Shown: piece after piece, positions 19,862-23,267 of the stretch
Layout of the letters: every line of letters starts with the position of its first letter
Position numbering within the stretch: the stretch's first letter is position 1
NCBI RefSeq assembly: GCF_014837165.1
Contig: NZ_JACSPM010000002.1
Span: forward strand, 1-64,000
DNA length: 64,000 nt
Source: Microbacterium gallinarum
GTDB taxonomy: Bacteria; Actinomycetota; Actinomycetes; Actinomycetales; Microbacteriaceae
Direction of reading: 5' to 3'
Program-made: the position numbers and the translations under genes
Notes under the pieces: generated by a model
The model's database searches: none
The model's input: only the letters and a program-made list of their open reading frames with translations
Told to the model about the DNA's origin: nothing

Positions 19862-21517
19862 TCAGTCATAGGAGGCCTCCGCGGTCCAGACGTCGCCCTC
19901 GCACACCAGCAGCCAGGCCGCGCCGTCGGCGTCGACCACCTGGAACCGGTGCGCCCGCCGGGCGCGCATCGGATCCCACGTGCGCTCGACGACCGGCCAC
20001 GGCCCCGCCCACGCCTCGATCACCCGGCGGCGTCCGCTCTCGACCAGCACCGCCGGCACAGCCGACACGGCGCCCCGCTCGTCGACGTCGATCGTCTCGC
20101 CGCCGAGCGCGCGCACGTCGACCGGCACCGGCTCGGCGAACACCGTCGTGGGCAGCGGGTCGGGAAGACTGCCCGGCCACGGCCGGGCGCGCTGCGCCGC
20201 GATGCCGTCCTTGCCGGTGGCATGCCGGTCACCCCAGGGCACGAGCACCTGCCGCTCGACCAGCCATCGACCGCCGCCGATCTCGGGCGTGAGCACGCCC
20301 CGGTGCCCGAGCATCGCCTGCACGCGCGACAGGGCGTGGTGCACGCGCTCCTCGGGCCCGCCCCCGAAGATCGCGGGGGCGTGATGGGATGCCGCATCCA
20401 CCGCCTCGGGCGAGATGCGCACCAGCGCGACGCCGCTGCGCAGGAGTCCGCCCTCGGTCCCGCCTTCGCCGGGCTTGCCGACGTCTTCGGCCAGCTGCCA
20501 CCGCACGCGATCGACCACCGCCGCGGCGTCGAACGACCCCGGATGCAGCCAGACCCGATCACTGCGCTCGCCCCGATCGCCGACGAGCTCGACCCGCAGC
20601 TCGGTACACACGAGGTCGATCGCGCCGAGACCGGCGATGAAGTCGTCGGCGGTGACGCGCATGCCGAACGCGACCTGGTCGGCGATCTCGAGCGGCGGCT
20701 CGAACGCGATCTCACGGTGGAGCTCGGGCGGCGGCGTGCGGGGTTCGACGGGGCGCGAGTCGAGACCGCCCGACAGAGAGTGAAGACGGATGCCGCGTTC
20801 CCCGAACCGCTCGCGCACGCGATCGGGGGGCATCGCCGCGAACTCACCGAGCGTCTGCACTCCGAGGCGAGCCAGCAGCCCGACCAGGTCGGCCGACGCC
20901 GCGGCCGACGACGCGGGTGGACCGGCCCCGAGCGAGGAGGCGTCGAGCACCGCCACCGACAAAGGCGCCAGGAACCCGGCGGCACCGCCTGCCGGCACGG
21001 AGAAGATCGGCTCGGCCGCGCTCGCCCCCGCCTGCGCGGCCTGCTCGGCCGTGAACGGGCCATCGGCGATACCCGCACGGACGTCGCCGAGCCCGAGCCC
21101 GTGCATCTCGTCGACCAGCACGCGCGCCGCCTCGATCTCGCCGCCGTAGTAGCGCGCCGGTCCACGAGCACGCAGCGCGCACAGTCCGGGACGCACCAGC
21201 TGCACACCCGGAGCGCGCTCCTCGATGCGCGAGACAAGCGGCGCGAAGGCCCTGTGGTCGCGCGTCGGATCGGCCGGCACGACGGTGAGCCCCGGGCACC
21301 GCGCCTGCGCGTCGCGCCGGCGCTGCCCGCGGCGCACCCCCTCGGCGCGCGCCGACGCCGAGCAGGCCACGACGAGGTTGCGCTCCACCACTGCGACCGC
21401 GCGCCGGGGATCGAGGGGCACGCCGCCGGCGAGGCCGCCGCCGTCGCGGGTCAGCGCGGTGACGGGCCAGTCGGGGAACCACAGCACGAGGCTGCGCACG
21501 GGAGACGACACCGCCAT
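19862..21517 (-). CDS. imuB: Inactive Y-family polymerase ImuB
   Basis: This 551-aa Y-family homolog recruits DnaE2 to the beta clamp. It begins MAVSSPVRSLVLWFPDWPVTAL, where active Y-family enzymes have acidic metal ligands (DMDxFF); these are replaced, as in other ImuB proteins. The IVERNLVVACSASARAEGVRRGQ and little-finger regions are present. The C-terminal tail, with GDRHATGKD and ADGAAWLLVCEGDVW, is typical of the group. ATG at 21517 lies 1 nt after the imuA' stop (TGACATG), indicating tight coupling. A 41-codon upstream extension overlapping imuA' is rejected. Confidence 0.9.
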   Translation of the reverse strand: MAVSSPVRSLVLWFPDWPVTALTRDGGGLAGGVPLDPRRAVAVVERNLVVACSASARAEGVRRGQRRRDAQARCPGLTVVPADPTRDHRAFAPLVSRIEERAPGVQLVRPGLCALRARGPARYYGGEIEAARVLVDEMHGLGLGDVRAGIADGPFTAEQAAQAGASAAEPIFSVPAGGAAGFLAPLSVAVLDASSLGAGPPASSAAASADLVGLLARLGVQTLGEFAAMPPDRVRERFGERGIRLHSLSGGLDSRPVEPRTPPPELHREIAFEPPLEIADQVAFGMRVTADDFIAGLGAIDLVCTELRVELVGDRGERSDRVWLHPGSFDAAAVVDRVRWQLAEDVGKPGEGGTEGGLLRSGVALVRISPEAVDAASHHAPAIFGGGPEERVHHALSRVQAMLGHRGVLTPEIGGGRWLVERQVLVPWGDRHATGKDGIAAQRARPWPGSLPDPLPTTVFAEPVPVDVRALGGETIDVDERGAVSAVPAVLVESGRRRVIEAWAGPWPVVERTWDPMRARRAHRFQVVDADGAAWLLVCEGDVWTAEASYD

Positions 21518-21518
21518 G

Positions 21519-22292
21519 TCAGCCCACCGCCCTCGCTTCGAGGGGGACGAACCGCTCATCGGACCGCAGCTCGTCGCCCGACCGCAGCGGCTCGACACCG
21601 CGCATCGTCTCGGGTGCGACGGACACCTGGCCCGAGGCATCCGGAAGCATCACCCTCGCCCGGCGCGATCGCGGCCACCGCCTGCTCGACGACGTGACGG
21701 TCAGCTCGCGCGTGGCGAGGTAGCCGTGGCCACGACCCAGCCCCGTCCATGCGGGGTCGGCGATCTCGAGCACGGCCTCGGCCTGCGGCCACGGCCCCTG
21801 CACGAGCAGCACGGCACCTCGATCGCGCAGGCGGGCGGCCAGGCGCGCGATCTCGCCGTCGGCGGCCCGGCCGGCCGGACGCACCGCCACGACGGGGAGG
21901 ACCTCGGCGATGGTCGCCGTGACGGTGAGCCACCGGGCGCCGGGATCGGGGATGAGCACGAGGCGCGAGAGATCGACCCCGAGCCCCTCGGCGGCCTCGG
22001 CACCGAGCCGCGGCATGCCCACCGCCGCACACCACGACCCCGATTGCGACGGCTGCGACAGCAGCGCGAGCAGCAGCGAGGTGGACCGTGGAAGCGAGTA
22101 CGCCGACCCCGGCCGCAGACCCCCGCCGGGAAGCAGCGAGGCGAGTGCGGGATGGACCGGCAGCACCGGAGCGTCGAGCTTGCGCCCCTGCACCCGCTCG
22201 AGCTGAGCGCGGAGTCGTGCCACCTCGCTCTGCGGCCCCGTTGGGGCCTGCTCTTGCGCGTGCACCGCCGTGAGTTGCACGGTCGCCCTCAT
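21519..22292 (-). CDS. imuA': ImuA'-type RecA-like mutasome protein
   Basis: This 257-aa protein resembles the RecA/SulA-related ImuA' partner of ImuB: hydrophobic core LLPGGGLRPGSAYSLPRSTSLLLALLS lies at the P-loop position but without a classic GKT, followed by WCAAVGMPRLGAEAAEGLGVDLSRLVLIPDPG. ImuA' is needed for DnaE2-dependent mutagenesis. ATG at 22292 is chosen over GTG at 22298: TAGTCT (22304-22299) lies exactly 6 nt upstream, as in the window's other leaderless genes. It heads the imuA'-imuB-dnaE2 operon. Confidence 0.85.
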   Translation of the reverse strand: MRATVQLTAVHAQEQAPTGPQSEVARLRAQLERVQGRKLDAPVLPVHPALASLLPGGGLRPGSAYSLPRSTSLLLALLSQPSQSGSWCAAVGMPRLGAEAAEGLGVDLSRLVLIPDPGARWLTVTATIAEVLPVVAVRPAGRAADGEIARLAARLRDRGAVLLVQGPWPQAEAVLEIADPAWTGLGRGHGYLATRELTVTSSSRRWPRSRRARVMLPDASGQVSVAPETMRGVEPLRSGDELRSDERFVPLEARAVG

Positions 22293-22302
22293 TCCCACAG
22301 AC

Positions 22303-22429: not shown

Positions 22430-22927
22430 TCACGCAGCGAGCGCGAGGTACGGCTCCCACCGCGGATCAGTGCGCTCCGTGCCGCGGACCGTCCACTGCC
22501 CGCCCCGCGGCGGGTGGGGTGTGAAGCGCAGCTCCCAGTGCATCTCCTGCGGCGTGCGATCGCCTTTGAGGTTGTTGCAGCGCAGGCAGCACGCGACGAG
22601 GTTCTCCCAGGAGTCGCCTCCCCCGCGCGACCGCGGCAGCACGTGGTCGATCGTCGACGCCGATGCTCCGCAGTAGGCGCACCGGTGCGAATCGCGGCGC
22701 AGCACTCCCCGCCGCGTCACCGGCACCCGCCGCCCGCCGGGCACCCGGACATATCTCGTCAGGATGATCACCGCCGGACGGTCGTACGCTCGTCGGGTCC
22801 CCCACACCGGATCCCCATCGGTGTGCTCGATGACAGTGGCCTTCTCGTTCATCACGAGCACGAGGGCCCGTTTGAACGACACCACGGCGAGCGGCTCATA
22901 GCCCGCGTTCAGCACCAGAGTGCGCAT
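22430..22927 (-). CDS. HNH endonuclease-family protein
   Basis: This 165-aa protein starts MRTLVLNAGYEPLAVVSFKRALVLV and carries a classic HNH core: CAYCGASASTIDHVLPRSRGG and ACCLRCNNLKGDRTP, with two CX2C pairs binding structural zinc. It is the widespread actinobacterial HNH protein of unknown target found in nearly every genome of the group; no restriction partner is adjacent. GAGAGGATG lies before ATG at 22927. Its upstream neighbour on the same strand is the 36-codon gene with a terminator. Confidence 0.88.
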   Translation of the reverse strand: MRTLVLNAGYEPLAVVSFKRALVLVMNEKATVIEHTDGDPVWGTRRAYDRPAVIILTRYVRVPGGRRVPVTRRGVLRRDSHRCAYCGASASTIDHVLPRSRGGGDSWENLVACCLRCNNLKGDRTPQEMHWELRFTPHPPRGGQWTVRGTERTDPRWEPYLALAA

Positions 22928-23004: not shown

Positions 23005-23033
23005 AAAAAAGGCGCTGTCTTATAGACAGCGCC
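23005..23033 (-). terminator. Intrinsic terminator overlapping the small gene
   Basis: A perfect 9-bp stem (GGCGCTGTC / GACAGCGCC) with a 5-nt loop is followed on the minus strand by six T. It is the best intrinsic terminator in the window. A second hairpin, GCCACGG / CCGTGGC, stands immediately upstream (about 23037-23056). Read-through would enter the HNH gene at 22927. Confidence 0.93.
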
Positions 23034-23130
23034 ATGGCGCCACGGTCTGGCCGTGGCATCCGCTCGTGCAATGCCGAAGGACGAGGCGTCCGAGCGCATC
23101 CGTGGTTCGAATGCGTGGTGTGATGCCCAT
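23020..23130 (-). CDS. Small 36-codon protein ending inside its own terminator
   Basis: ATG at 23130 follows GGAGGGAG by 4 nt, a very strong ribosome site, and opens 36 codons (MGITPRIRTTDALGRL...APWRCL) ending TAA. It contains four Cys (RHC, GCHG, WRC) and no membrane segment. The stop codon falls in the loop of the terminator at 23005-23033, so the ribosome reaches the stem as it stops. The M23 gene upstream has its own terminator, so this should be a separate transcript. No family is recognised. It could be a functional microprotein, or a leader peptide whose translation affects read-through into the HNH gene. Confidence 0.6.
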   Translation of the reverse strand: MGITPRIRTTDALGRLVLRHCTSGCHGQTVAPWRCL

Positions 23131-23235
23131 CGGCTCCCTCCGCTTCTCTCAGCGTCGGGTTTCAGGCTAACGCACGCACGCACGACGGGGGCCGAGTCGC
23201 GGGATGAACGCCGCGTGGCGTGTCGGCGAACGGAC

Positions 23236-23267
23236 GATCCCCCCGGCGCCGTGACGCCGGGGGGATC
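23236..23267 (-). terminator. Terminator after the M23 peptidase gene
   Basis: GATCCCCCCGGCG (23236-23248) pairs perfectly over 13 bp with 23255-23267 across a 6-nt loop, about 23 nt after the stop at 23290. No T-run. It separates the peptidase transcript from the small gene at 23020-23130. Confidence 0.8.

Follow-up and report, generated by a model that had tools for sequence, protein, structure and literature searches.

A probable translation-coupled transcription attenuator in the conserved leader of an HNH endonuclease gene of Microbacterium

The leaders of pyrBI/pyrL-type attenuators contain a U-rich, UTP-sensitive pause. At the E. coli pyrE attenuator, the stop codon of rph closely precedes the terminator, and the position of the ribosome sets the level of read-through. 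In E. coli pyrBI, the pyrL leader ORF covers the intrinsic terminator, and termination is prevented by tight coupling across pyrL, the close ribosome suppressing the hairpin without need of an antiterminator (PMC5021804, PMC4824070). A terminator placed a few bp past a stop codon was almost fully repressed by the coupled ribosome in E. coli, and termination was restored when the terminator lay beyond about 27-30 nt or when translation was removed; in amino-acid attenuators the stop codon is found more than 20 bp from the terminator (PMC4824070). In M. tuberculosis, a translating ribosome promotes elongation (PMC10937400). The mycobacterial ilvB1 and whiB7 leaders combine a short actinobacterial uORF with an intrinsic terminator, and they work by stalling and an antiterminator (PMC13236596). 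In the Sinorhizobium DUF1127 uORF attenuator, the ribosome site of the uORF can pair with the uORF's own codons, so that late ribosomes meet a closed site; attenuation there is probably Rho-dependent and is promoted by translation (PMC12218461).

The window analysed here, a stretch of 64,000 nucleotides from Microbacterium gallinarum, contains on its minus strand an unannotated ORF of 36 codons between a gene for an M23 peptidase (Pfam Peptidase_M23, 1.8e-26) and one for an HNH endonuclease (Table 1). Its peptide reads MGITPRIRTTDALGRLVLRHCTSGCHGQTVAPWRCL. We propose that this 5' leader of the HNH gene is probably a translation-coupled transcription attenuator that works like pyrBI/pyrL. Comparison of related loci showed that the promoter, the leader ORF and the helices P0, P1, P3 and P4 are conserved before the HNH gene, with the stop codon held on the terminator. 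Here, unlike in pyrBI/pyrL, the target is an HNH nuclease and not a pyrimidine gene, the stop codon is docked on the hairpin itself, and codons 17-20 form a helix that closes the start codon. No U-rich stretch was found between leader start and terminator in this sequence. Since both the U-rich pause and the pyrimidine gene are absent, we do not file the leader as a member of the pyrBI class, only as one working like it.

An earlier note on this DNA had described a strong ribosome site, an ATG, 36 codons and a TAA placed within a 5-nt loop, whose stem has 9 bp and is succeeded by six Ts; all of this was borne out by the sequence. It had counted four cysteines in the peptide, where there are three. 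It had also credited the M23 gene with a 13-bp terminator of its own, of which the 13-bp hairpin exists and the T-run does not, and had argued that the leader needs its own promoter. The latter was supported: a TANNNT motif preceded the leader start by 37-46 nt in 89 of 89 loci, against 7.8 expected from shuffled sequences.

Table 1. Features of the leader and its surroundings (positions in the window).
Feature	Coordinates	Strand	Evidence
M23 peptidase gene, 13-bp terminator-like hairpin without T-run, arms GATCCCCCCGGCG/CGCCGGGGGGATC	23236..23267	-	sequence, by eye
Leader promoter, -10 element TAGCCT	23164..23169	-	TANNNT here in 89/89 Microbacterium loci and 50/50 further loci
Shine-Dalgarno of leader ORF, GGAGGGAG	23134..23141	-	sequence; purine-rich SD-like stretch in 89/89 loci
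Helix P0, 5' strand GCCGATGGGC, start codon included	23125..23134	-	compensatory changes (columns 40-101, 46-96); RNAalifold
Leader ORF, 36 codons, ATG at 23130, stop TAA 23022-23020	23020..23130	-	sequence
Hairpin P1, CGCATTCG-AACCA-CGGATGCG, codons 6-12	23095..23115	-	95.5% of cells paired; two pairs changed on both sides
Helix P0, 3' strand GTCCTTCGGC, codons 17-20, closes start codon region	23073..23082	-	RNAalifold; compensatory changes
Hairpin P3, GCCACGG...CCGTGGC, just 5' of terminator	23039..23057	-	6/7 pairs changed on both sides; one pair GC/AU/GU/UA
Intrinsic terminator P4, 9-bp stem GGCGCTGTC/GACAGCGCC (23033-23011), stop-bearing loop TATAA (23024-23020, 5 nt), T6 (23010-23005)	23005..23033	-	sequence; 99.8% of cells paired
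Hairpin P5, AGCCG loop, 5' of the ribosome site of HNH; a single mismatch in this genome	22947..22963	-	recurrence in loci
HNH endonuclease gene, putative attenuator target	22430..22927	-	Pfam HNH_5, 6.4e-13; directly downstream in all loci examined

The element was present in 180 of 198 sampled Microbacterium genomes; among named relatives, M. sp. CFH 31415 and M. flavescens are the nearest. Ninety Microbacterium loci were collected, and 50 further Microbacterium loci formed the replication set. The leader frame was open from start to terminator in 88 of 88 loci, as against 44 and 68 for the two other frames. By codon phase, entropy averaged 0.28/0.31/0.78 bits, and single-base codon differences were synonymous in 74% of cases in the leader frame versus 15% in the other forward frames. 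P0 and P1 overlap conserved codons, so that RNA structure could mimic codon periodicity; the periodicity signal was therefore never used alone. We infer that the leader ORF is translated because its stop codon is docked on the terminator (see below) and because indels within the ORF, read by eye, keep the frame (+3, +9, +15 and about -30 nt). The N-terminal part of the peptide is conserved as P-R-I-R-T-[MTV]-[DN]-A-L-G-x-x-V-L-R-H. The positions of the cysteines, which the earlier note had named among the features to look for in relatives, vary.

A stop codon in the frame of the ORF itself overlapped the loop of the terminator in 82 of 89 loci (2 and 4 in the other frames) and, in the replication set, in 46 of 50 (0 and 4). 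Relative to the hairpin, the ORF adopts two frames, found in 61 and 25 of 86 loci. Among the 63 loci of one frame class, 61 kept the stop in the loop, as did 21 of the 26 loci of the other, and the loop sequence varied with the class: TATAA, TGTAG and TGTGA versus TTCATGA, TGTCTAG and TGCATAG. On the HNH gene tree, whose branch support is moderate, about 5-6 frame changes could be placed, and the stop was docked anew in about three lineages of the second frame. Docking on the terminator persisted while the frame and the C-terminus of the peptide changed. Automatic scoring misread the terminator of one locus by pattern search (L063) and chose the wrong ORF in two (L174, L175), which did not materially affect the totals.

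Around 8% of Microbacterium loci do not have a loop stop, and in certain other genera the stop is found shortly ahead of the hairpin or far beyond it; a location within the loop is therefore not in itself essential. Of 47 scored leaders of other Microbacteriaceae, 21 had the stop at the foot of the 5' arm, 7 had it in the loop, 6 in the tail and 13 past the hairpin, and none had it before. These 47 are a selected set insofar as 14 other loci yielded no leader ORF with the expected motif to our script. Stops at the foot occurred in the own frame in these 21 loci and in the other frames in 3 and 4. Outside Microbacteriaceae, the leader frame ran past the hairpin in 17 of 19 automatically scored cases, the two exceptions being wrong ORF choices. 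The stop-in-loop geometry emphasized in the earlier note is real, and it is how Microbacterium follows a broader rule by which the stop lies at the foot of the hairpin, in its loop or past it.

The RNA structure of the leader was also conserved. Over 67 sequences, 94.1% of the cells of the four helices P0, P1, P3 and P4 paired, and 64 cells had changed on both sides versus 9.4 in shuffles, a signal which was lost when the partner was slid. Codons 17-20 largely keep their wobble bases because of the pairing in P0, and this pairing implies that the start codon would close once codon 20 has been transcribed. P1 recurred in other Microbacteriaceae, with ATC/GAT and GTC/GAC varying together as judged by eye. 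Two other candidates were discarded. A different, weak pairing between the start codon and codon 20, proposed by RNAalifold from a gappy alignment, gave way to P0 in view of the cleaned alignment and the compensatory changes, and a second leader hairpin, GGATGCC/GGCAT, was not conserved. One Microbacteriaceae locus (L301) has lost P1 by an apparently in-frame deletion and kept the ORF, part of P0 and the stop in the terminator loop; it constitutes a natural test of the role of P1.

In fold simulations without a ribosome, the terminator belonged to the minimum-energy structure in 87 of 88 loci. Placing a ribosome at any of the codon indices 1 to 28 still allowed it to form in 87-88 of 88 loci; at index 29 it formed in 85, at index 30 in 6 and from index 31 on never. 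No antiterminator was found across ribosome positions up to about codon 28 in these 88 loci, and the simulation predicts that the hairpin is blocked solely when a ribosome occupies the last 7-8 codons. The leader would thus share two traits with pyrBI/pyrL: an ORF that, as judged by comparison from its open frame and docked stop, is translated up to or across the terminator, and a terminator opposed by proximity of the ribosome rather than by an alternative RNA structure. With pyrE it has in common the stop of an upstream ORF near the terminator, although this upstream ORF is a full gene in pyrE and a short leader here. The closing of the ribosome site by codons of the ORF itself is reminiscent of the Sinorhizobium DUF1127 leader, where, however, translation acts in the opposite sense.

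These simulations also bear on a classical stall-type attenuator, in which termination would follow full translation, whereas a ribosome stalled at particular codons by starvation or an antibiotic would expose an antiterminator and switch HNH on. The known actinobacterial uORF attenuators ilvB1 and whiB7 work in this way (PMC13236596), and leaders rich in histidine codons do exist in one other genus. We nevertheless consider this explanation doubtful for the present leader, since no structure outcompetes the terminator with a ribosome at any position as far as about codon 28, the stop sits on the terminator instead of lying more than 20 bp away from it as in amino-acid attenuators (PMC4824070), and Microbacterium leaders contain no run of codons for one amino acid. 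All three characteristics of trp, his and ilv attenuators, i.e. antiterminator, distant stop and codon run, are hence missing.

Synteny and promoter motifs designate the HNH gene as the target. It lies 3' of the leader throughout Microbacteriaceae, and the layout of leader, terminator and HNH recurs in variant form in other families. A TANNNT motif between terminator and HNH occurred in 1 of 89 loci where 20.5 were expected. Because the leader promoter is conserved and a -10 element before HNH is almost never seen, HNH is probably transcribed by terminator read-through, and probably reached only by read-through of P4. Together with the docking of the stop, this supported one of the two readings offered in the earlier note, a leader peptide controlling read-through into HNH.

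In Microbacterium, about 80-100 nt separate the leader stop from the HNH start, and they hold HNH's own ribosome site and P5. A hairpin with an AGCCR loop was detected some 30 nt before the HNH start in 55 of 90 Microbacterium and 47 of 63 other Microbacteriaceae loci (0.4 and 0.3 in shuffled sequences); P5 may possibly be a second control element or a protein site of the HNH mRNA. The hairpin with an AGCC(G/A) loop before HNH recurs also in some other families. This arrangement does not favor a reading in which the terminator is constitutive and the leader ORF, on transcripts that have passed it, serves mainly for translational coupling to HNH or for reinitiation there. Such a function is suggested by one family (f7), where the end of the leader ORF overlaps the HNH start by ATGA or GTGA (L173, L176 and L190; L175 from its sequence). 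It appears unlikely for Microbacterium given the distance and the elements in between, and it leaves the docking of the stop on the hairpin unexplained. As to the gene itself, PADLOC matches for HNH reflected only the shared HNH motif. Two ORFs 3' of HNH (19862-22298, minus strand) presumably resemble ImuA'/ImuB-type mutasome genes.

Returning to the attenuator, we infer the following direction of control. RNA polymerase would initiate at the leader promoter. A ribosome following promptly and closely would cover the 5' arm of the terminator from the last 7-8 codons during synthesis of the U-tract, which would result in read-through into HNH. With a late, slowed or missing ribosome, P0 would close the leader start codon after codon 20, P3 and P4 would fold, and transcription would terminate before HNH. 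The output of HNH would then report whether translation keeps pace with transcription. A stop in the loop may be well suited to this, as a ribosome terminating there would cover both hairpin arms without running past.

Among the near-complete genomes sampled from Microbacteriaceae, 243 of 269 carried the HNH gene; in other families of the order it was present in 97 of 198 genomes and often goes along with a leader ORF and a terminator. Leader peptides in these other families are unrelated to that of Microbacterium, being His-rich, Ala-rich or of other composition. In one of the other genera (g99; L135-L150) the leader ORFs are rich in histidine codons with HHHH runs, and the downstream gene is HNH and not a histidine gene.

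The second reading of the earlier note, a cysteine microprotein, found no support. More generally, the ORF could encode a stand-alone microprotein from a transcription unit of its own, next to which HNH merely happens to lie; the strong ribosome site, the own promoter and the conserved N-terminal peptide might speak for this. We regard this as very unlikely: HNH always lies 3' with almost no -10-like motif after the terminator, the C-terminus is read in two frames according to species, the cysteines lack conservation, and other families have unrelated peptides. That the element is a structured non-coding RNA or a small RNA, with the open frame as by-product, is hardly credible, since the start codon, the in-frame indels and the loop stops that track the ORF frame would not be expected without translation, even if the helices covary and the conserved part of the peptide coincides with P0 and P1.

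More tentatively, as a possibility that falls somewhat short of probable, the leader, with its start codon closed in Microbacterium by its own codons 17-20, may register the pioneer ribosome alone and so sense ribosome-RNA polymerase coupling independently of any amino acid, its ORF being kept docked on or through the terminator across actinobacterial families. If the attenuator reading is right, it would provide a natural coupling sensor in Actinobacteria, where the weight of transcription-translation coupling is still debated, and one that is small, conserved and easily placed in a reporter. Translation capacity would control a near-universal, uncharacterised HNH nuclease of Microbacteriaceae, and a uORF stop on a terminator could serve as a search rule for further switches of this type.

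The leader matched none of the Rfam covariance models, its peptide had no meaningful hit in Pfam or NCBIfam, and phage and plasmid collections contained no similar DNA. No description of this leader was found in a literature search that covered mainly freely available papers. The leader looks like a widespread, unreported translation-sensing switch.

Three minor observations concern single groups or loci. A sub-group of the leaders with a stop at the foot (L198-L228, other Microbacteriaceae) contains GTG CAC TGT CAC (VHCH), which resembles the core of the 5' arm of the terminator. One genome from another family has a c-di-AMP riboswitch (Rfam RF00379, E 3.8e-12; L149:3254-3386, minus strand) close to its HNH locus. 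Finally, a record titled Planococcus sp. APC 4015 (L244) carries a Microbacterium-like HNH gene with 88% identity and is probably a misnamed or contaminated assembly.
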